Shown here piece after piece: positions 20,335 through 48,511 of a DNA stretch of 48,511 nucleotides; within the stretch, counting starts at the first letter, position 1; each line of letters starts with the position of its first letter. The notes under the pieces were generated by a model. The model saw only the letters and a list, made by a program, of their open reading frames with translations, searched no databases and had not been told where the DNA came from. Both the position numbers and the translations under genes were made by a program. Source of the DNA: a virus; IMG/VR virus record IMGVR_UViG_3300047384_000444, positions 1 through 48,511 of that record; one strand, given 5' to 3'.

Positions 20335-20978
20335 AAGCAATTCAGAAATATAAAGATATTCAGGATATCGACCTGGATGCGATCTATGATTTTATAGACA
20401 ATGGCGATCGCAGTAAAGCCCCTCCGGAGGTTGTGGATTATCTGCACCTTATGGACAAAATTCGGGCGATGCACCTGCGTATTGACCGTTATGGCAGTAA
20501 GGATGCAATTGTAAACCACTTGATGAAAGTGGAAGGCCTTAGCCGGTACCTGGCTAACAAAGCTTACAATCAATCGATGGAATATTTCTATGCAGATAAT
20601 GATATTTCAAAAGAAGCCTGGAGAAACATTTTAGCGCAGCGCATGGAAAAAAATATTTCCATTGCTCAAATGCTGGTTAAAGATGTTTCTGATAATGCCA
20701 AGGTAAATAAAATGTACATCGAGATGGCGCAGGCGCTTGGTCTTCACCTTCCAGATCCTGAACCGGTACCTGAAGGAGCTTATTCCAGGCCGAATAAGAT
20801 TTACACTTTATCTATGGAAGACCTGGGCAGGGTACCACAACCTAAAAAAGAGCTTCGTGATTTCATTATGGGTCTGCCTGAAGTTTCTGAAAAAGTAAAA
20901 CAAATGGCATTACAGGAAGCACTCCTGGAACCAATGCAAATATTCCCAGACGAGAATGAGGATCCCCGAAAGTCTTAA
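20331..20978 (+). CDS. Packaging-associated protein, second small-terminase-like subunit
   Basis: A 215-aa protein between the HTH protein and the large terminase, overlapping both. It is mainly helical (SKDAIVNHLMKVEGLSRYLA; ISIAQMLVKDVSDNAK), a pattern seen in Bacteroidota phage packaging operons. No catalytic motif is visible. It may bridge the HTH subunit and the ATPase. Confidence 0.55.
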   Translation: MKAIQKYKDIQDIDLDAIYDFIDNGDRSKAPPEVVDYLHLMDKIRAMHLRIDRYGSKDAIVNHLMKVEGLSRYLANKAYNQSMEYFYADNDISKEAWRNILAQRMEKNISIAQMLVKDVSDNAKVNKMYIEMAQALGLHLPDPEPVPEGAYSRPNKIYTLSMEDLGRVPQPKKELRDFIMGLPEVSEKVKQMALQEALLEPMQIFPDENEDPRKS

Positions 20979-22662
20979 GAAAGCCAAAGATGCAGAAATG
21001 CGCTTTGGTACCTGGGCGAAACAAACAATAGATCTTGTCTCGCCAAAAAACCTCATTGTGGTTGCCGGCCGTGGAACCGCAAAAACAAGTGATATTACTG
21101 CAGAGCGTTCCATGGACATCGTGCACGATATGCCCAGGGGTTATTCTGCTTTTGTGGCCAATACATACGATGATGCTGTGAGGAACATTGCACCTTCCAT
21201 GATTGAAGGATGGCTGAGAAAAGGCTGGAAAGAAGGATTGCATTTTGTGACTGATGAGCGGCCGCCAAAAAAATGGGATCAGCCTTATAAGCCCCCAATG
21301 ACCTACAAGCATACTATTTCTACGTTTACGGGCCATTTCTTTAACATAGGAAGTTTGGCGCAGCCTTCATCCCTTGCCGGTAACTCTTACCAGCATATGT
21401 TTGTGGATGAAGCCAAGAACTGTAACTTCGATAAGCTCAAGAAACTTTTCCCTGCCCTGCGTGGTGATTTTACAGTTTTCGGCCATTCTCCCTATTTCCT
21501 TGGGATGACCATTACAAGCGATATGCCCCGTGTTGGTGATGGGGAGCACGACTGGATCCTGAACTACGAAAAGGAAATGAACAAAGAGCGGGTCCTTGCT
21601 GCCCTGCAGGCAGGAATGGAGCTTAATCAGATCAAAATAAAATTGATCAAGGCAAGGAAGCAGCGTAACAAAGCAAGGATAAAAAGCCTCTGCAATCAAT
21701 ATGTAATGTGGTACGAGCTGTGGATACGATCGCGAATGGATCTTACCATGTTTTTTACCGTTTCCACTTTTGCAAATGCGGAGATCCTCCGGAAAGTGTA
21801 TTTTGAAAATGCGCTTCTTTCCATGGGTACCGAAGAATTTAAGAGTGCCATTCTTTCCCTCAAGGCAGAGCTCAGGGCCGGGGAAAAATTCTATCTAAAC
21901 CTGGGCGAACACCATTTTTATGATGATGGCCTTTTAATCGATTTTTACCAGGATAATTACAGGCTTACCGATACGATCGGAATTGGAAGCTCTCAGGGAC
22001 TCCGGTACATTCAACACAACAAAAAATTGGAATGTGGAATTGATTTCGGGAATCAATGTTCCATGGTCCTTGGACAGCCAAAGGGACGTTACTATTACCT
22101 TTTAAAGAATTTGCATACGTTGGCCCCACATTCCAGTAAAGAGCTGGCAAAACAGTTTATTGACTTTTTTAAAGGACATAAAACAAAAGTTCTCGATATG
22201 TATTACGATCGTTCCGGGAACCAAGGTAAAAGTGTAAAAAGAGACTGGGCTACAGAAATCAAGGATCATATCGAGAAATATAATGGATTTTCTACAGGTT
22301 GGACAGTAAACCTGAAGTCAAGGAACCAGGGAAACCTGACCCAGGAAGCAGAATATAATTTTGCCAAAAAGCTTTTAGGGGAATATTATCCGGGCCTTCC
22401 AAAAATGAAGATCGACAAATACCAGGCTAAACATTTGAAAAGTTCCCTGGAGCTTACCAAAACAAAAATGTCAAAGGACAGGAATGGATCCAGTAAGCTG
22501 GAGAAAGATAAAAGCTCAGAAAAAAACCTGCAGCTTAAGAATTTGCCGATGTTTTCCACAAACTTTTCGGATGCTTTTAAATACCTGATCATGCGGCCTG
22601 AATGGATTCGCCTGGCAGACAAGAAAACCGGTGGTACCCTTGTGGAACCGGAAGTGGTGTAA
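20956..22662 (+). CDS. terL: Terminase large subunit
   Basis: A 568-aa packaging motor. Walker A is at residues 37-44 (AGRGTAKT) and Walker B with the catalytic Glu at about 147-152 (HMFVDE). The C-terminal nuclease shows the acidic motifs CGIDFGNQCSMVLG and MYYDRSGN. It pumps DNA into the procapsid and cuts the concatemer. The start at 20956 overlaps the preceding gene by 23 bases, which is long but gives the only full N-terminus. A small RNA gene follows 13 bp after the stop. Confidence 0.92.
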   Translation: MRIPESLKKAKDAEMRFGTWAKQTIDLVSPKNLIVVAGRGTAKTSDITAERSMDIVHDMPRGYSAFVANTYDDAVRNIAPSMIEGWLRKGWKEGLHFVTDERPPKKWDQPYKPPMTYKHTISTFTGHFFNIGSLAQPSSLAGNSYQHMFVDEAKNCNFDKLKKLFPALRGDFTVFGHSPYFLGMTITSDMPRVGDGEHDWILNYEKEMNKERVLAALQAGMELNQIKIKLIKARKQRNKARIKSLCNQYVMWYELWIRSRMDLTMFFTVSTFANAEILRKVYFENALLSMGTEEFKSAILSLKAELRAGEKFYLNLGEHHFYDDGLLIDFYQDNYRLTDTIGIGSSQGLRYIQHNKKLECGIDFGNQCSMVLGQPKGRYYYLLKNLHTLAPHSSKELAKQFIDFFKGHKTKVLDMYYDRSGNQGKSVKRDWATEIKDHIEKYNGFSTGWTVNLKSRNQGNLTQEAEYNFAKKLLGEYYPGLPKMKIDKYQAKHLKSSLELTKTKMSKDRNGSSKLEKDKSSEKNLQLKNLPMFSTNFSDAFKYLIMRPEWIRLADKKTGGTLVEPEVV

Positions 22663-22674
22663 GTGGAATTTGGT

Positions 22675-22682
22675 TATATTTG
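22675..22682 (+). promoter_or_regulatory. Promoter of the tRNA-like small RNA
   Basis: An exact TATATTTG -7 element lies 13 bp after the terminase stop. Transcription would start near 22687, exactly at the beginning of the RNA's closing stem. No clear -33 TTTG is visible at the normal distance. Confidence 0.55.
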
Positions 22683-22685
22683 ATG

Positions 22686-22805
22686 AACTGGTAGCAACCT
22701 TGACGAAGGGAGTTATGTACGCTTAGGTAACAGCTGCAGCGTTGAAATACGGGGAGATGTAAGCGAGGTTCGAATCCTGCCTCCCAACTTGGCTACCAGT
22801 TTTTT
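22686..22805 (+). ncRNA. Stand-alone tRNA-like small RNA (Y RNA/YrlA-like)
   Basis: About 120 nt between a perfect -7 element and a six-T tract. The ends pair exactly: AACTGGTAGC (22686-22695) with GCTACCAGTT (22792-22801). Inside are GGGAG (22708-22712) with CTCCC (22781-22785), a D-arm-like hairpin GCT-TAGGTAAC-AGC (22721-22734), a competing CGCTTA/TAAGCG helix (22720-22725, 22760-22765) and a canonical T-arm, AGG-TTCGAAT-CCT (22766-22778). The anticodon arm is degenerate and no CCA end follows the inner stem, so it is not a normal tRNA. A long end-to-end stem plus a tRNA-like module is the plan of bacterial Y RNAs, also known from phages. Confidence 0.6.
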
Positions 22806-22821
22806 AAATCAAATTTTGACT

Positions 22822-23292
22822 ATGACTCGTGAAGCCGAAAACTTTTTAAGATCTCTGATAGAGCTGAATCCTTCTGTTATGTATGAATGGAAAGAGGAAC
22901 GGGGTAGAATAACTTCTGTAAAATTGAAAAGATCTGAATTATCTGAGAAGGAAATCGAGATGGCGATGTTCTTCAGTAAAAATGGTAGTCCTGAAATTGC
23001 CGTTGAATGGAGAGAGGAAGACGGCGGTCCCAGAGGATTATCATTTAATCATCTAATCATTGATGATTTTGTCGATGAAGCTCTTGAATTTGACGTTGAA
23101 GCCTTTAAGTACTTTCATGTAGCCAGGAAAAGTGGTCGTAATCCATGGGTCACCGGAACGGTAGGCCTCGAATTCATGTCCAAAAATGGACTTATACAAG
23201 AGCTTGTGATCGCTGAAAAGGAAGAAAACTACGAGAGGTGCGCAGAGATCCTGAAGTGCGCTGAATCTAATGGATGGGAACTAAAAAAATAG
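22822..23292 (+). CDS. Hypothetical protein with UVR-like C-terminus
   Basis: A 156-aa acidic protein from ATG 22822, after an AATCAAATTTT leader; the longer frame from 22789 would overlap the RNA terminator and is unlikely. The last 35 residues (LIQELVIAEKEENYERCAEI) resemble the UVR hairpin also found at the end of the 9313 gene product. The rest is unknown. The gene lies in the accessory island between terminase and portal. Confidence 0.55.
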   Translation: MTREAENFLRSLIELNPSVMYEWKEERGRITSVKLKRSELSEKEIEMAMFFSKNGSPEIAVEWREEDGGPRGLSFNHLIIDDFVDEALEFDVEAFKYFHVARKSGRNPWVTGTVGLEFMSKNGLIQELVIAEKEENYERCAEILKCAESNGWELKK

Positions 23293-23296
23293 CTTT

Positions 23297-23527
23297 ATGG
23301 CGGGAAAGCACATTTTATCAGAAAAAGAAGAGGCAGATCGTCTATATATGATGATGCGGGCGCAAATAGCTCCCTTTCATGACAAAAAATTTCTTCACAC
23401 TACAACAAAATCTGTTTGCGGGGAAGCTATCGATCTTGCCTCCAGGAATGGGGATTCTTCTTATTGGTATAGTGTAAAAATTGAACTGGGAAAAATACCG
23501 GATCCGGAAGGACGGGAAATTGGTTAA
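23297..23527 (+). CDS. Hypothetical protein
   Basis: A 76-aa protein starting four bases after the preceding stop. It is mixed helical with one cysteine and no recognised motif. Its TAA stop overlaps the stop of the convergent minus-strand gene within the four bases TTAA (23524-23527). Confidence 0.55.
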   Translation: MAGKHILSEKEEADRLYMMMRAQIAPFHDKKFLHTTTKSVCGEAIDLASRNGDSSYWYSVKIELGKIPDPEGREIG

Positions 23528-24045
23528 TTTTCGTCTAATCTAAAACGAATATAAGTACCTGCATCCTCGTATGCCAATATACCTTTATTCTTTCCCCAGG
23601 AAGGTCCATCAAAATCACCTCGAGCATATTTTAAACTTCCTTCACCTAATGAGACAGAAGCGAGTGGGTACCTTTCTTTTTCGTAAATGTTTTTAATCAG
23701 ATCCTCTCCTGTCACGATTAAGTCGTTGTTTGCATCATAAGCCCTCCAATGAATCAGTTTATCGAGTAGTTCTTTGGATTTATCCAAAGTTAAAAAGCCA
23801 AAAGGTTCATGATTTATGGTTCTTAGCAAATCGTAAGTTTCCGTTTTTTCGCTTATACCGAAGGTGTATTCTTCATTTAATCCCAGATCATGCGTGAAAT
23901 ACAATCTAAGGTGGAAGCCATCCTTATTCTCTAAAAGAGCTAGTTTACGATTATTCTTGAAAGCAAAAGGAAGATTTGGTTCAGTTGTATGTATTGTGTA
24001 TCCTTGATCTTCTGCTAATTCTTTAAGTCTTTCTAACAAAGTCAT
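23524..24045 (-). CDS. Hypothetical accessory protein
   Basis: A 173-aa acidic protein with an N-terminal helix (LLERLKELAEDQGYTIHTTE) and an alternating strand-rich body. It ends with aromatic and charged strands (YARGDFDGPSWGKNKGI). Its own minus-strand promoter is probably the TACTTTTA element at 24066-24073, since the upstream RadC operon terminates at 24087-24114. An AATCAAATTT leader precedes the ATG. No family recognised; a defence or conversion gene is possible given the cassette-like setting. Confidence 0.55.
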   Translation of the reverse strand: MTLLERLKELAEDQGYTIHTTEPNLPFAFKNNRKLALLENKDGFHLRLYFTHDLGLNEEYTFGISEKTETYDLLRTINHEPFGFLTLDKSKELLDKLIHWRAYDANNDLIVTGEDLIKNIYEKERYPLASVSLGEGSLKYARGDFDGPSWGKNKGILAYEDAGTYIRFRLDEN

Positions 24046-24065
24046 TTTTTGAAATTTGATTTCTG

Positions 24066-24090
24066 TAAAAGTAGAAATTCTTAAAACAAA
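24066..24090 (-). promoter_or_regulatory. Promoter of the 173-aa accessory gene
   Basis: On the minus strand, TACTTTTA (24073-24066) matches TAnnTTTG in seven of eight positions. A TTTG lies upstream (24090-24087) within the T-tract of the RadC operon terminator. One operon would end and the next begin within about 30 bp. Confidence 0.45.
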
Positions 24091-24114
24091 AAAGGCTTAC
24101 TGTGGTAAGTAAGC
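24087..24114 (-). terminator. Terminator of the RadC cassette (minus strand)
   Basis: Read on the minus strand, GCTTAC (24114-24109) pairs with GTAAGC (24100-24095) around an eight-base loop, and C plus six T follow (24094-24088 region). It ends the leftward RadC transcript. Confidence 0.75.
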
Positions 24115-24123
24115 TCCAAGCCC

Positions 24124-24144
24124 TCGCCCGAAGGGCGATTTTTT
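24124..24144 (+). terminator. Plus-strand terminator facing the cassette
   Basis: TCGCCC (24124-24129) pairs with GGGCGA (24133-24138) around GAA, followed by six T. It would stop rightward read-through coming from the terminase side before it enters the minus-strand RadC operon. Confidence 0.75.
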
Positions 24145-24180
24145 GAAAAAACCGCCACATTCGGAAATCGAAATGTAATT

Positions 24181-24660
24181 TTAAAATTCGCCTTCGTCGG
24201 CGAAGCTGTAATAACTTTCTGAAGTTATTATAAGATGGTCCAAGAGTTTTATATCCAGCGTTTCAGATGCTTTTTTCGTTTTCGCTGTTATATTCTTGTC
24301 AGCCTGTGAAGGTCTAAGGGTTCCGCTCGGGTGGTTGTGGAACATAATAAAAGCCGTTGCATTCGCTTTGATAAGGTTCTGGAACATTATGCGAATATCT
24401 ACCACCGTACCTGTAATGCCTCCCTGTGATATTTTAGAAACCCCTAAAACCTGATTGCTATTATTAAGCATCATAATGTACATACATTCGTGGTGCTCAA
24501 TGTGGTCTTTTGCTATTTCCCTTGCAATTAAAAAAGCACAATGAGATGAGCCGATTTTGTTCCGGTCTGCGGTGTGTGTTCCTGCTTTGTAGGATATAGA
24601 TACTTCCGCAATTTCAAAAAGTGACTGAGTTTTTTCCATTTCCAAAAAATTAAAATTCAT
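24181..24660 (-). CDS. RadC-like JAB-domain protein
   Basis: A 159-aa protein of the RadC/JAB (MPN-like) fold. The metal-site motif HNHPSG followed by PSQAD is at about residues 106-120, with the upstream conserved stretch MMLNNSNQVLGVSKISQGG. It is shorter than chromosomal RadC and lacks the N-terminal helix-hairpin-helix. Such short versions are common on mobile elements of Bacteroidota. The old repair role of RadC is doubtful and the activity unknown. The start at 24660 overlaps the upstream gene; ATG 24639 (MEKTQSLFEIAE) is an alternative. Confidence 0.85.
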   Translation of the reverse strand: MNFNFLEMEKTQSLFEIAEVSISYKAGTHTADRNKIGSSHCAFLIAREIAKDHIEHHECMYIMMLNNSNQVLGVSKISQGGITGTVVDIRIMFQNLIKANATAFIMFHNHPSGTLRPSQADKNITAKTKKASETLDIKLLDHLIITSESYYSFADEGEF

Positions 24661-24871
24661 ATTCTAGAAAGTCGCTTTCTGTGCGGTACTCTTCAATAAA
24701 CATTTGCGCTACTGCTTGCGCCTGGTTAAATGCCCTTTTCGCTCTGTACTTGAAAAGTTCATAATCTCGGTAATTGAAAACCTTAGAAAGTCCGTGATTG
24801 TGTAGGATTAATTTTACTTGCTCACTAGTCTTTAATGATTTACTTTTGCCTGTGTTAGGTTGTTTAGTCAT
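24650..24871 (-). CDS. Hypothetical protein of the RadC cassette
   Basis: A 73-aa basic helical protein (SEQVKLILHNHGLSKVFNYR) encoded just upstream of RadC and overlapping it. An AATCAAATTT leader precedes the ATG (plus-strand positions 24881-24890). Small partner proteins like this travel with mobile-element RadC genes. Function unknown. Confidence 0.55.
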   Translation of the reverse strand: MTKQPNTGKSKSLKTSEQVKLILHNHGLSKVFNYRDYELFKYRAKRAFNQAQAVAQMFIEEYRTESDFLEYEF

Positions 24872-24891
24872 AGCCTTACGAAATTTGATTT

Positions 24892-24934
24892 AATACCCCT
24901 TTACCGTGCGAGGTTCAGGGGTATTTTTGTTTTT
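24892..24934 (+). terminator. Plus-strand terminator-like hairpin between cassette genes
   Basis: AATACCCC (24892-24899) and GGGGTATT (24918-24925) pair exactly, with an inner ACC/GGT pair, and TTTGTTTTT follows on the plus strand. It lies between two minus-strand genes, so it either stops antisense RNA or acts as an intercistronic structure in the leftward message. Confidence 0.6.
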
Positions 24935-24936
24935 AA

Positions 24937-25320
24937 TTAGATTTGAAATTGTACGATTTCTTTTCCTGTCTGGTCTTTAAGCTCCCTTAGTTCCTGCTCT
25001 ACAAATCCCAGAAGCTTTCCTATAGTTACAGGATTGCTAATGGTAAAATGGTAGTCACTGTTAGAAGAAAATTCCATTTTTGAAATTGTTCCGTCATTAC
25101 TGGCGTTGTAGTTTACCAGTTCATCCAGTTTCCTGTCTATCTTCTGCTTTTTCTCCGCAAGCCTGTTAAGGGTTTCCAGTTTTTTAATTCTGTCGTCTGC
25201 GGATGGGTTCAGGATAGAAACAACTTTTTCAGTTGCTTTTTTCACTTCTGCGCTTTTTAGATCCTGCGCTTTTTCTGTTTTTGCAGTTTCTTTTTTTACT
25301 GCTGTCTTTGTGTTACTCAT
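24937..25320 (-). CDS. Coiled-coil accessory protein
   Basis: A 127-aa protein, first gene of the leftward cassette. Residues 3-40 are a lysine, alanine and glutamate-rich segment, 45-75 a coiled coil (RIKKLETLNRLAEKKQKIDR), and the C-terminal part ends in a second helix (LLGFVEQELRELKDQTGK). Proteins with this plan are frequent on Bacteroidota plasmids and integrative elements, but I know no function. A TATGTTTA promoter element lies 22 bp upstream. Confidence 0.6.
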   Translation of the reverse strand: MSNTKTAVKKETAKTEKAQDLKSAEVKKATEKVVSILNPSADDRIKKLETLNRLAEKKQKIDRKLDELVNYNASNDGTISKMEFSSNSDYHFTISNPVTIGKLLGFVEQELRELKDQTGKEIVQFQI

Positions 25321-25341
25321 AACGTATGAAATTTGATTTGT

Positions 25342-25349
25342 TAAACATA
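25342..25349 (-). promoter_or_regulatory. Promoter of the leftward accessory cassette
   Basis: TATGTTTA on the minus strand (25349-25342) matches the -7 consensus in seven of eight positions. It lies upstream of the coiled-coil gene and its AATCAAATTT leader. Confidence 0.5.
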
Positions 25350-25380
25350 CTCTAATATACGAAAAAGTAAATTAATAATC

Positions 25381-25797
25381 GACATTTTAGCCTGATTTTT
25401 AGCAGGTTAACCTTAAAAAAACCATCTTTTTTGACCTCCAGACAGAAAAAAAAGACCTCAAAACGGCATCCGTTAAAAACCTAAAAAATTAAAACCCTGT
25501 AAATCAGTCTTCAATCCCTTTGCAATGAAATTGCAAAAGGGATTGAGAGACGATTGACCCCGTCCCGCTCTCTCCCGTCTGGGCAATTGCGAGGGAGTGA
25601 AAAAATGAGAGATATGACCCCTCGACCCCTGCCCAGCGCCCTGCCTGTGGGTGTTTTGCGGTCATTTACAGGTGTTTAAATACCATTTGATGCCCCGTGT
25701 CCATACAGGGGTTCCTTGCTTAGATGGCCTTATATGCCCTCCTATGGCCTGCCCAACCAATAGGCTGCAACCGCCTGTGTTTACAGGGGGTTTCGAC
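25381..25797. other. Gene-free region with several hairpins between accessory cassette and portal operon
   Basis: No convincing gene lies in these 417 bp. The largest structure is a 15-bp stem with one bulge, CAATCCCTTTGCAAT against ATTGCAAAAGGGATTG (25512-25545), with a GAA loop and no T-tract. Three CCTGT/ACAGG-type hairpins follow (from 25644, near 25700 and at 25774), and the sequence becomes rich in C on the plus strand. ATGGCCT occurs twice (25723-25760). It could hold an RNA, a packaging site or an insertion scar; nothing decides between these. Confidence 0.5.
25769..25793 (+). terminator. Terminator before the portal operon
   Basis: AACC-G-CCTGT (25769-25778) pairs with ACAGG-G-GGTT (25783-25792) over a GTTT loop, with one G-G mismatch. 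Three T follow, so it is a modest terminator. It ends five bases before late promoter 4, matching the terminator-promoter pattern seen at 16679, 38336 and 10606. Confidence 0.6.
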
Positions 25798-25833
25798 TGT
25801 CACACCTTCAACCACTTGCTATCCCTACACTTG
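25798..25833 (+). promoter_or_regulatory. Late promoter 4 (portal operon), probably leaderless
   Basis: TGTCACACCTT (25798-25808), 17 bp, then TACACTTG (25826-25833). The ATG of the first gene is at 25838, only four bases after the -7 element, so the message would have almost no leader. Confidence 0.7.
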
Positions 25834-25837
25834 TAAC

Positions 25838-26125
25838 ATGAACGCAACCACTAGAACCAGTCAGCTCTATGCAGTCCTTAAAAGGATGAGGGAACTAACC
25901 AAAGCAGGTGTTCCCTTTGATATAGAGTTCATCTCGTACCAGGAAACCGCAGGTATAACCGAAGGGTTGAAGTCGGCGTCCGGAATTCAGTTAAGAACCG
26001 GAATGAGCAAAGCATACAGTGATAAGGCAGATGTACTCATAGGCTATGTAAAAGACGGCAAGAACCGGTGGTTCAATCTTCCCCTACTAATCAAGTTTAA
26101 TAACAAGTACATCCATGAATATTGA
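25838..26125 (+). CDS. Hypothetical protein upstream of portal
   Basis: A 95-aa protein from ATG 25838. The N-terminal half is helical (TSQLYAVLKRMRELTKAGVP), the rest strand-rich (GIQLRTGMSKAYSDKADVLIG). It overlaps the portal gene by 11 bases. It is first in the portal operon, and its message may be leaderless. Possibly a small connector or head-completion factor; no family recognised. Confidence 0.6.
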   Translation: MNATTRTSQLYAVLKRMRELTKAGVPFDIEFISYQETAGITEGLKSASGIQLRTGMSKAYSDKADVLIGYVKDGKNRWFNLPLLIKFNNKYIHEY

Positions 26126-27491
26126 ATTCTACGGGCAGAATGCCCTTGTCGAGGCAGATGATAATGTCTTCTCCTTTGAAGTAGCAGAGAATCCCCGGGA
26201 TCTGCATGAAAGCAGGTCGAAGGATAACGATTCCCTTGACTGGAGTAATACCGTAAACAATTATCATATCGATGATTGGGGAATACTTCCATTTGGTAGT
26301 AACAATGATCTTCCTAAGGTGATTAAGAATGTGGTACAGAATAACTCCAAGGTACCCGGGATCATGAAAAAGAAGAACGGTATGTTGTGGGGGAAAGGCC
26401 CCAAGCTATACAAGGAAGAGTTTAATGAGAAAAATGAACTGGTGCGAAAGTGGCAGGATGACGGTGAAGTACAGGATTGGCTTGACAGTTGGGATGCTGA
26501 GTCGTATTTGTATAAGTGTAATACAGATGTTACCCACATCGAAGGCGCCTTCACTAAATTCTACCGGAGTAAAGGTGGTCGATTCGGCCAGGGAAAGATT
26601 GCTAAGCTGGAGCATGTGTCCTCAGAGAAAGCTCGCCTGGCCTATAAGCTAGCAAGTAATCGTCCGGATCCGACCCATGTGATCATTAATGACTGGTTCC
26701 TTACTCACCTGGATCATTTAACGAACTTTAAAGTCTACCCAAAATTCGACTTCAGCAAACCATTTGAGCATCCCAATAGCATTTACTATTCCAACATGTA
26801 CAGCTTCTGTACGGACTATTATACGGTCCCGGATATCTATGGTTCCCTGGAATGGATAAGAAGATCCACAGCTGTCCCACTTATACTCAAGGCGCTTTCC
26901 AAGAATTCCATTAATGCCAAGTATCACATCACTTCCCCTCAAAGCTTTTGGGATAAAGTGGAGGACCAACTTAAACAACAGTGTACTGATAAAAACAAAG
27001 ATTATAAGCCTTCAATGCTGACAGAATACAGAACTAAATTCCTCCGGAAGATTTCCAATGTTCTTTCTGGTGAAATCCAAAGCGGAAAGTACTGGCATAC
27101 TGTAAAAACAATGAATGTGGATGGATCCAATATCATTGAAGAAGGTTGGGAAATCAAACCAATTGACCAGAACATAAAGGAATTTGTAGAAACTCAGATT
27201 AAAATCGGGGAAACTGCAGATCAATTTGCGTCTGCCAGTGTTGGGGTGCATACCTCCATAGGTGGTACCGGAACCGCAGGAAGATCAGATTCGGGAAGTG
27301 AGCAGCTTTATGCGCTCCAAAATTATATGCTTACGGGAGTGGATATCCCTGAAATGATAGTGATGAAGCCTCTTAACTACGCTCTCAAAGCGAATTTTCC
27401 GAAGAAAAAATTAAAGATTGGCTTCTATCGTATGCCTGCTCAACGTGAGGAGGACAAAAGCGAAAATGACCGACTCAAAAAACAAAATTAG
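26115..27491 (+). CDS. Portal protein
   Basis: A 458-aa protein with the general plan of Bacteroidota phage portals: an N-terminal segment with DWGILPFGSNNDLPKVI, a central part rich in aromatics and in helices typical of the portal stem and wing (SLEWIRRSTAVPLILKALSK), and a C-terminal helical region ending in charged residues. It would form the ring at the head vertex through which terminase pumps DNA. In most phages it lies next to terminase; here 3.2 kb of accessory genes separate the two. The call rests on length, order and general shape. Confidence 0.7.
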   Translation: MNIEFYGQNALVEADDNVFSFEVAENPRDLHESRSKDNDSLDWSNTVNNYHIDDWGILPFGSNNDLPKVIKNVVQNNSKVPGIMKKKNGMLWGKGPKLYKEEFNEKNELVRKWQDDGEVQDWLDSWDAESYLYKCNTDVTHIEGAFTKFYRSKGGRFGQGKIAKLEHVSSEKARLAYKLASNRPDPTHVIINDWFLTHLDHLTNFKVYPKFDFSKPFEHPNSIYYSNMYSFCTDYYTVPDIYGSLEWIRRSTAVPLILKALSKNSINAKYHITSPQSFWDKVEDQLKQQCTDKNKDYKPSMLTEYRTKFLRKISNVLSGEIQSGKYWHTVKTMNVDGSNIIEEGWEIKPIDQNIKEFVETQIKIGETADQFASASVGVHTSIGGTGTAGRSDSGSEQLYALQNYMLTGVDIPEMIVMKPLNYALKANFPKKKLKIGFYRMPAQREEDKSENDRLKKQN

Positions 27492-45499: not shown

Positions 45500-47333
45500 C
45501 TTTGAGCTGGATTTCGCAGGAAAAGAACTCAATATAGTAGAGGAAAATCATTGGTTCAATGACCAATTTTTCACGAAATATTCTTTCCCTTTTGAATTTG
45601 ATATCGATGAAGAGCTGGATGCAGCTCTCGAGATGATCACTCATAACAATGCAAGGCGTAGCGATAAAACTTTTGAAGGATACCTGCAGAAATTTGGTGG
45701 AGAATCGGAAGCAATTCTGGTGATTGAAAGAATTCAGGGTAAACGCGGACAGGGGAAAATGCGCTATGGCCTGGAAGAATTCCCGAATTTCGATAAAAAG
45801 CTTTCAGAATTGCCGCTTGAGCAATTCAGGCTAGAAGTGCCTATTGCAGATTTCGCACTGGCCAGACTGGATGAAACATATCCAGCAGTAAATTTTAATT
45901 TTCCGCAGCTTATCGTAGATCATTTCGATACCAATACGGCGCAATGGCTGTATTTTGAAGGGATCATCAACAATTACAAATCGGGTGCTTTTCTCAAAAA
46001 CGAATACAACAGTACGACTGCAGAGCAGATCAACCGAAATATTATGCAACCGGTTCCATACCTGCTTTATGTGCTTGCACAAGGCTTCGCAGATGCCGGA
46101 CTGGAGCTTAGGGGGGAGATCCTTCAGGATCCAGAATTCAAGGACGCGGTAATAACTATGATCTCAGATTATTACAGCTCTTCATCTGTAGACAATATGG
46201 AGGCTACCATGCAGGCGAATGAGTACTCCAGCATTACCAGGGAAACAGAAAACAGGATTTATCTTGCCAGGTATGCTAAGAGTATTTTTTTACCCTCTTC
46301 CGGAATTTATAAAGTTTCGGGGAATATTATTATAAGATCGATTGCTGTTGAAGCTTTTGCGGAACTTCATTTAGGCCTGGACAATGTCATTTGGCGGGCT
46401 ACAGATCATAACCTGGGCTATGAAGAAAAATTCTTTTCTATAGATCTTGATATTGATATTCCTTCCACACAATTTGGAGAGACATTGAGATTTATTTCTG
46501 AACAACTTCCGTTTGCCAGCGATCCACAAATGAATGAGCAGGATCCAACTGCAATGATCCTTGATCTAACTATTACGAAAATTGCAGGGTATGATTTGGA
46601 GGGAAACCTAGTTCCTACCCTGGTGTCACCGGAAAAAATTGACCTTCAGAAATGTGTTCCCGACATGACCTTTGGAGATGTACTGAAGGCTCTGAAGAAC
46701 TGGAAAAACTACGATGTTACTATAGGTGACGGGTATGTAGAGATGAACAAGATCAAAAGCATAAAGGATGCTACAGTGGCCATTGATCTAACAGATAAAG
46801 AAGTCAAGGAACCTATCCGGAATTTTTACCAGGATAATACTTTTATCCTCCAGTTACAGGAAGTAGGATCTGATGAGTATAAATTCGCCAAGCTATTTGT
46901 GGATTCCTCCGGAAGCCGTACTTCTTCTTTCGTTAAGAATGACAATACGAAGGAGATTACCATTAATGGAATTCCGTTACCTATGAAGGAATCTGGAGGG
47001 GTAAGCACTGCCCATCTTTTTACTGATGCAAAATCCATTCTGGCTCTGAGTATTTATCCAGGCCTTGATAATGGATTAAATACCTGCAGGGATACTTCAA
47101 AATTACTTATCCCGGCAGTCTATCAAAGCGACTGGAAGGAGTGGATTGACTTCAGAATTAATTCAGAAGGTTTTGAGTGGCCATTCTTTATAGATTCAGA
47201 AAGGGCCGGTGCCATATCTGAAAAATCAAAGATTTATGCCTATGCACGGGAATTTATTGTACGTCGTGTGAGCAAAAAAAATGTTTCCCAAAATTGGTGG
47301 GAGATAACGCTGGAGTGTGATGGGGCAGATTAA
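45474..47333 (+). CDS. Distal tail / baseplate hub protein
   Basis: A 619-aa protein. The N-terminus (LKFTCPSFELDFAGKELNIV; NHWFNDQFFTKYSFPFEFDI) and the repeated beta modules resemble hub proteins of long-tailed phages. FGDVLKALKNWKNYDVTIGD (about residues 401-420) is a small alpha/beta unit. It is the last structural gene; its stop overlaps the stop of the integrase gene on the other strand (TTAA 47330-47333). Specific family not recognised. Confidence 0.6.
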   Translation: MILKFTCPSFELDFAGKELNIVEENHWFNDQFFTKYSFPFEFDIDEELDAALEMITHNNARRSDKTFEGYLQKFGGESEAILVIERIQGKRGQGKMRYGLEEFPNFDKKLSELPLEQFRLEVPIADFALARLDETYPAVNFNFPQLIVDHFDTNTAQWLYFEGIINNYKSGAFLKNEYNSTTAEQINRNIMQPVPYLLYVLAQGFADAGLELRGEILQDPEFKDAVITMISDYYSSSSVDNMEATMQANEYSSITRETENRIYLARYAKSIFLPSSGIYKVSGNIIIRSIAVEAFAELHLGLDNVIWRATDHNLGYEEKFFSIDLDIDIPSTQFGETLRFISEQLPFASDPQMNEQDPTAMILDLTITKIAGYDLEGNLVPTLVSPEKIDLQKCVPDMTFGDVLKALKNWKNYDVTIGDGYVEMNKIKSIKDATVAIDLTDKEVKEPIRNFYQDNTFILQLQEVGSDEYKFAKLFVDSSGSRTSSFVKNDNTKEITINGIPLPMKESGGVSTAHLFTDAKSILALSIYPGLDNGLNTCRDTSKLLIPAVYQSDWKEWIDFRINSEGFEWPFFIDSERAGAISEKSKIYAYAREFIVRRVSKKNVSQNWWEITLECDGAD

Positions 47334-48511
47334 AAAAGCTGATCCATGATCTTAACCTGCTCACAGGCTTCAGATTCTACAATGTGCACATAGATCATCG
47401 TTTCTGAAATTTTGGAGTGTCCCAGGATCTTTTGTAGGTCCTGGACCTTTCCTCCCATCCTAAGAAAATTTGTTGCGAATGAATGCCTGGCAACGTGGAA
47501 ACTCAGATTTTTTTGGATATCACATAGGTTTGCGATCTTTTTCAGAACCCGATTGATTTCCTCGGGCGTTGGCATCTGCACGAAAAGCCGCTCATCGTGA
47601 TCAAGGATCTCCCTTAGTTTATTGGAAATGCTGATCCACTGTCTTTTTTTGGATTTTACACTTACAAACTGGAACATATCTTCCTCCAGTTGTTTTCGGC
47701 TTAACTGTTGCACATCTGAAATTCTAAGGCCTGTAAAACAGGAAAACAGAAAGTACCCTGCAGTTAGGCGATACCTTTCATTCATGAAGGGAGAAAAGAA
47801 AAGCTGATATATTTTCTTGATTTGTTCCGGACGCAGATCCGTTCGATGCCCCTTTGTGCTACCTACCTTTACATCATCTTTGGATATAGCCATACGAATA
47901 CCGGCTTTTTCCGCGGCATGGATATATTTTTTTACTACCGCAATATTACTTTCAATAGTTGTGGGCTCATTTCCCAGGGCTTTAAAATGAGTTCTCATTT
48001 TCAGGATTAGATTTTCATCGACTTCAGTGAAGTAGATTTTCTTTTTCCATTTACGCAGCTTGGTGACAATTGATTTATGCCTTCGCACAGTTCCTTTGGC
48101 TAATATTCTTTTTTCAGCCTCAATTTGGTAATCCATATATGCCAGGAAATCTATTCGGGGAATGCTGTTCCTGAATTCCTGGACAAACTTGTCAACCGAC
48201 AATTGCTTATGGGATAGGTGGTACATTGTTTTAATCCCGGTGATCTTTGAATCTACATTGTCCAGAACTAGGTTCATCTCGGAGTACTTAGGATCCGAGG
48301 TTTTTAGCCTGGCCTCTTTTGGATCCCATAATTTTGGAGGAACAAATATCTCCAGGGGAATCCTTTCCCGTTGATAATTTTTGGAGACATGCAAATAGAG
48401 TGGCGATAAGCCATCGGAATTCACATATTTTCTTTTTACGATTCTTGTTTTCACTGACACAAACATTTTTTTTGTGTCAACCAGTGTGTCGAAAACCTGA
48501 TCTTGCAGCAT
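47330..48511 (-). CDS. int: Tyrosine-type integrase
   Basis: A 393-aa site-specific recombinase as read to the window edge. Catalytic residues are complete: R263 (TGLRISD), H339 and R342 (HVARHSF), H365 (GHSKISE) and Y374 (MIYVHI); K286 or K288 in the beta hairpin may be the catalytic lysine. An arm-binding type N-terminus (VKTRIVKRKYVNSDGLSPLY) and a SAM-like core-binding domain (about 110-205) precede it, as in Bacteroidota phage and transposon integrases. The true start is more likely M16 (48466), because the family usually begins there and the first 15 residues do not fit. It would insert the phage genome into the host chromosome. Confidence 0.9.
   Translation of the reverse strand: MLQDQVFDTLVDTKKMFVSVKTRIVKRKYVNSDGLSPLYLHVSKNYQRERIPLEIFVPPKLWDPKEARLKTSDPKYSEMNLVLDNVDSKITGIKTMYHLSHKQLSVDKFVQEFRNSIPRIDFLAYMDYQIEAEKRILAKGTVRRHKSIVTKLRKWKKKIYFTEVDENLILKMRTHFKALGNEPTTIESNIAVVKKYIHAAEKAGIRMAISKDDVKVGSTKGHRTDLRPEQIKKIYQLFFSPFMNERYRLTAGYFLFSCFTGLRISDVQQLSRKQLEEDMFQFVSVKSKKRQWISISNKLREILDHDERLFVQMPTPEEINRVLKKIANLCDIQKNLSFHVARHSFATNFLRMGGKVQDLQKILGHSKISETMIYVHIVESEACEQVKIMDQLF
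48456..48478 (-). promoter_or_regulatory. Hairpin enclosing the integrase start codon
   Basis: GACACAAA (48456-48463) and TTTGTGTC (48471-48478) form an exact 8-bp inverted repeat; outer CACT/AGTG can extend it. The probable start codon of the integrase (CAT at 48464-48466 on the plus strand) lies in the seven-base loop. It could limit translation of the integrase or be a binding site. Confidence 0.45.

Follow-up and report, generated by a model that had tools for sequence, protein, structure and literature searches.

A candidate terminator-ended leader RNA with a T-arm-like hairpin in the TerL-portal slot of a Duneviridae-like phage

Y RNAs of the YrlA class (Rfam RF02553) are about 120 nt long, carry the letters of the Ro motif, and combine paired ends with a tRNA-like module that contains a T-loop. 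In the covariance model, and in the copies aligned from two Bacteroidota loci (L263 and L270), this module is circularly permuted, with the order T-arm, acceptor hairpin, and D-arm. The bacterial Ro motif, which we take to be GNCGAAN0-1G, presumably lies in the stem that joins the two ends of the RNA. Another RNA of ~120 nt with paired ends, the pRNA of phage phi29, is required by the packaging ATPase. In riboswitch and attenuator leaders with a P1 helix, a promoter is followed by a multi-hairpin junction and a closing helix whose end is a U-tract immediately upstream of an ORF. That phages encode Y RNAs is already a known idea: a paper on a Listeria phage cites mycobacteriophage Y RNAs and puts forward certain RNAs of that phage as further candidates (PMC12282133). 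Here, we compare with these systems a putative structured RNA of a phage, which an initial annotation had described as a stand-alone tRNA-like unit resembling a bacterial Y RNA; it is not established as a phage Y RNA.

The window, i.e., the whole stretch of DNA that was analyzed, is a 48,511-base record of a Duneviridae-like temperate phage of Bacteroidota. Its TerL and portal are related to those of Duneviridae phages of Flavobacterium and Cellulophaga, and also to those of Porphyromonas and Bacteroides phages. Behind TerL follow, in this order, TATATTTG, the arm AACTGGTAGC, the T-arm-like GGTTCGAATCC (22767–22777), the arm GCTACCAGTT, a T6 tract, and an ORF that we call the cargo ORF (Table 1). 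The perfect -7 element, the exact 10-bp stem joining both ends, the canonical T-loop (TTCGAAT, 22769–22775), and the six-T end reported by the initial annotation are all present in the sequence, and, as it had stated, there is no CCA and no recognizable anticodon arm. The T-arm, with a T-loop of the form TTCRANN, spans 22766–22778. No second copy of the unit occurs in the window. In the minimum free energy (MFE) fold, GACGAAGG, which the initial annotation had not mentioned, belongs to a small hairpin as its loop and 3′ arm. Outside the closing stem, ATTTGAT (22678–22684) and ATCAAAT (22808–22814) lengthen the inverted repeat into the promoter, and this extension resembles terminal inverted repeats. 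The cargo ORF returned no match in Pfam, PHROGs, PADLOC, or NCBIfam; its C-terminus (23220–23289, EKEENYERCAEI) looks by eye like a UVR motif, without a family match.

Table 1 Features of the RNA unit and its flanks (positions in the window)
Feature	Position	Strand	Basis
Terminase large subunit (TerL)	20956–22662	+	52% to laban6-1 protein; homologous to annotated terminases
Putative Bacteroidota-type -7 promoter element TATATTTG	22675–22682	+	Sequence; same element just 3′ of TerL in two relatives, L120 and Flavobacterium phage laban6-1
Putative structured RNA, 116–120 nt, with paired ends and terminal T-run	22686–22805	+	MFE −37.2 kcal/mol (22686–22801); z −2.35 vs. shuffles; joint chance ~4e-4
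Closing helix, 5′ arm AACTGGTAGC	22686–22695	+	Exact complement of 22792–22801; pair probabilities 0.55–1.00
GACGAAGG	22702–22709	+	Matches letters of the presumed bacterial Ro motif; outside closing stem; easily chance
D-arm-like GCT-TAGGTAAC-AGC	22721–22734	+	Pair probability 0.05 (weak support)
Extended T-arm-like hairpin GGGAG-ATGTAA-GC(G)AGG-TTCGAAT-CCTGC-CTCCC	22752–22785	+	Second GGGAG/CTCCC 0.97–0.98; T-arm pairs 0.58–0.76
Closing helix, 3′ arm GCTACCAGTT	22792–22801	+	Exact complement of 22686–22695
T6 tract, terminator-like end	22800–22805	+	Sequence
Cargo ORF, 156 aa	22822–23292	+	Begins 16 nt past T-run; L120 homologue, pair E 1e-12
Portal	26115–27491		
Integrase	47330–48511	−	Far end of window

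Each of these elements is weak by itself. The octamer TAnnTTTG alone is ordinary (41 in the window vs. 45.5 expected), a closing stem with T-run is expected 0.15–0.22 times per window, and T-arm-like strings 1.7 times. A stem and T-run that enclose a T-arm are expected ~0.0004 times per window and appeared in 0 of 200 shuffles, in a joint test that was designed post hoc with the sequence already seen. The folding energy indicates a somewhat more stable RNA than its shuffles (Table 1). The ordinary frequencies of the octamer and the stem, and the post hoc choice of features, are consistent with a chance meeting of an octamer that looks like a promoter, an inverted repeat, and a string resembling a T-loop, which are never transcribed as one unit; however, the small joint expectation, together with a promoter position that is kept in relatives, makes this reading decidedly unlikely.

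The predicted fold departs from the one proposed initially. Two copies of GGGAG, at 22708 and 22752, compete for CTCCC at 22781. The initial annotation had built its inner stem from the first copy, which pairs with a predicted probability of 0.00, the second copy taking CTCCC instead (0.97–0.98). The D-arm-like hairpin that it had also proposed rarely forms in the prediction, and its fold as a whole (−30.0 kcal/mol) is ~7 kcal/mol worse than the MFE of −37.2 kcal/mol. The MFE fold is predicted to be a junction of hairpins. An alternative fold, less stable than the minimum by only 1.1 kcal/mol, places D-like, anticodon-like, and T-like arms in the order of a tRNA, so the RNA may be able to take a tRNA-like shape.

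Covariance searches against YrlA, tRNA, and tmRNA models had been proposed as checks. Even at E ≤ 10, RF02553 returned no match in 261 and 131 bases of the region, and RF01053 (Deinococcus Y RNA) returned none in the region. A genome search with RF02553 gave no candidate at the window RNA. As a positive control, TROVE (Ro/Rsr) genes were sought in 395 Bacteroidota genomes and found in 27; beside several Bacteroidota Rsr/TROVE genes, RF02553 recovered RNAs with E values of 1e-17 to 1e-5 (up to 73 bits, most of them under the 69-bit gathering score), and RF01053 did match in L263. The order of arms in the window RNA is unpermuted, with the D-like hairpin first and the T-arm after it, unlike the YrlA plan. 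No TROVE/Ro gene (PF05731) was matched within the window, in agreement with the initial annotation. A YrlA Y RNA was rejected on the missing covariance match, the unpermuted arms, and the lack of a Ro gene in the window. A divergent Y RNA whose partner is a Ro/Rsr protein of the host would fit the end-paired stem, the tRNA-like module, the presence of GACGAAGG, and the TROVE genes among the sampled Bacteroidota, but the missing covariance match, the unpermuted arms, and the lack of a TROVE gene in the window argue against it, as does the position of the Ro-like motif outside the closing stem, and we regard it as highly improbable. The window RNA offers a clean test for telling Y RNA look-alikes from real ones, by arm order and RF02553 score. 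Several YrlA-type and Deinococcus-type Y RNAs stand in arrays beside Bacteroidota TROVE genes (L263:2460–3090, L270:2398–3030, and L249:2761–2863; genomes G225 and G244), and since these mostly score below the Rfam gathering threshold they are likely unannotated.

ARAGORN called no tRNA at the window RNA, and the tRNA model RF00005 gave no cloverleaf with an anticodon arm, matching the T-arm only (13 nt, 22766–22778; model positions 49–61; 8.9 bits, E = 3.6). A recognizable tRNA was rejected on these results; nor is this the good match to a tRNA remnant that the initial annotation had named as a result that would speak against its claim. A tmRNA was rejected as well, there being no match by RF00023 or ARAGORN. 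The 19-mer GGTTCGAATCCTGCCTCCC, from the 3′ half of the RNA, occurs in 39 viral contigs (23 of the 39 are ARAGORN tRNAs), and phage tRNAs carry it with GGGAG upstream. Together with the T-arm GGTTCGAATCC and the GGGAG/CTCCC complement, this likeness to tRNAs, including atypical phage tRNA-like genes, would suit a degenerate phage tRNA gene between flanks that are complementary by accident. However, we estimate that sharing of the 19-mer is expected for any T-arm extension, because viral tRNA genes are so many; no copy of the 19-mer occurs in 249 Flavobacteriales genomes. None of the 39 contigs has a clear closing stem like that of the window. The window RNA also differs from tRNAs in having an extra closing helix with a T-run, and a degenerate tRNA gene, which we consider unlikely, would leave this exact stem and T6 unexplained. 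Some other tRNA-like phage sequences with GGGAG and GGTTCGAATCCTGCCTCCC have no ARAGORN call either (L324:11760–11860, L327, L320, and L333). An attP core derived from a tRNA 3′ end was rejected on the absence of the 19-mer from those Flavobacteriales genomes and on the location of the integrase at the far end of the window.

The stretch from TerL to portal (22662–26114) is a variable cargo slot across the Duneviridae-like phages compared. Its content in laban6-1 is methyltransferase and SymE-like genes; 6H has convergent genes there, and L280 apparently only a short head-tail-side ORF. In L120, whose TerL is 76% identical to that of the window, and in laban6-1, TTATATTTG is kept directly behind TerL; both have the same promoter and neither has the RNA. 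The L120 homologue of the cargo ORF (26% identity) stands directly behind this shared promoter. Because relatives keep the promoter without the RNA, one of them with the ORF homologue right behind it, we interpret the RNA as an orphan element, inserted after a conserved promoter and ahead of a cargo ORF; it would have been inserted in the window phage or lost in L120. The slot of the window also contains a RadC-like JAB domain gene (24181–24660, E = 3e-37), of which L120 7618–8073 is, by eye, the apparent counterpart. The initial annotation had found the place beside terminase unusual, but the cargo slot accounts for it and no packaging role is needed. The RNA shares length and paired ends with phi29 pRNA, whereas close TerL relatives of the window phage have no such RNA behind TerL; a packaging role is therefore unlikely, and a packaging RNA was rejected.

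In a further relative, L121, the corresponding place is taken by another leader with a helix and T7, which precedes a different ORF; the fold of this leader is unexceptional (z = −1.15). This ORF looks antirepressor-like by eye. In L121:2715–2850, GGGTTAC may pair with an upstream GTAACC or with a GTAACCC beside the ATG, the helix and T7 lying between, and by eye these alternative pairings look like a switch.

Tentatively, and with somewhat less than even confidence, we prefer to read the unit as an orphan leader RNA with a terminator end, inserted between the conserved cargo-gene promoter and the cargo ORF, in the TerL-portal slot of a Duneviridae-like temperate phage. If the promoter is active, it would give a transcript beginning at ~22686, which would fold as a hairpin junction with one hairpin resembling a T-arm. 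The first ten bases would pair with a ten-base arm leading into the T-run, and the closing helix would thereby work as a terminator; most transcripts would then end at ~22805, giving a discrete RNA of 116–120 nt, and the cargo ORF would be expressed by read-through only, throttled by the leader. The layout is that of an attenuator, in which a promoter, a structured RNA, and a terminator-like end come directly before an ORF in the same direction. Evidence for such a leader comes from the recurrence of TATATTTG immediately behind TerL in both L120 and laban6-1, followed directly in L120 by the ORF homologue; from the position of the window RNA exactly between promoter and ORF, where 16 nt separate the T-run from the ATG; from the 10-bp helix running into T6; and from the L121 leader at the same place and the low joint chance. 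Against it stand the lack of any RNA homologue found, a terminator helix that encloses 96 nt, an uncommon span in intrinsic terminators, a second promoter that is weak and was seen by eye (TTG-N19-AAATTTTG) but may serve the ORF independently, and the low z of the L121 leader. The RNA resembles riboswitch and attenuator leaders in its promoter, junction, and closing helix, but it matches no Rfam family, has no known ligand, and is absent from the L120 leader of the homologous ORF. Even so, a terminator-ended leader appears, in our cautious judgment, to be the reading with the fewest assumptions.

Homologues of the RNA were found neither by exact patterns in viral contigs nor by blastn against phage and plasmid sequences, and broader sequence patterns returned mostly tRNAs. 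A one-sequence covariance model found none in sets of 395 and 249 genomes, which is weak evidence of absence given a model without a positive control; a further search gave one match, inside the replicase-like gene of an apparent RNA phage, which was taken as chance. Two other roles were considered and rejected. A Type III toxin-antitoxin system is contradicted by an ORF that matches no toxin family and by L120, where the ORF occurs but the RNA does not; for the cargo ORF, the AlphaFold model was too poor for a structure search (pLDDT 55.6). An antisense RNA to a phage gene is contradicted by the lack of a complementary match of at least 11 nt elsewhere, the matches present being shorter than for most random segments.

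The main rival to a leader is a stand-alone small RNA acting in trans, whose T-arm-like hairpin would imitate a tRNA and engage a host T-arm-binding protein as decoy or tether, with TruB, TrmA, RNase P, PNPase, or a tRNA-cutting defense enzyme as candidate partners. The RNA's own promoter and terminator-like end, its closed ends, the canonical T-loop with GG/CC, the low-lying fold with tRNA arm order, and the location in a variable cargo slot are all in keeping with it. However, 13 nt alone match the tRNA model, the D-like hairpin rarely forms, and neither a homologue nor a known partner was found; we consider a trans-acting RNA possible but rather doubtful. The T-arm-like module may be sensed by a protein, or the short RNA itself may act in trans as a tRNA mimic. 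What probably stands of the stand-alone tRNA mimic initially proposed is a separate promoter-to-terminator unit with one T-arm module; its resemblance to Y RNAs does not. A more specific version, which we think quite improbable, is a new kind of phage tRNA mimic, with an unpermuted module whose acceptor side is closed by the terminator helix, so that it could not be processed or charged and would be a decoy for proteins of the host that bind T-arms or cut tRNAs. If true, such a mimic would matter for counter-defense.

Because it passes none of the sequence tests for a bacterial Y RNA, we regard the RNA as an orphan regulatory RNA that is plausible but ordinary. If it is transcribed, the TerL-portal slot of these Bacteroidota phages would carry structured RNAs besides genes.
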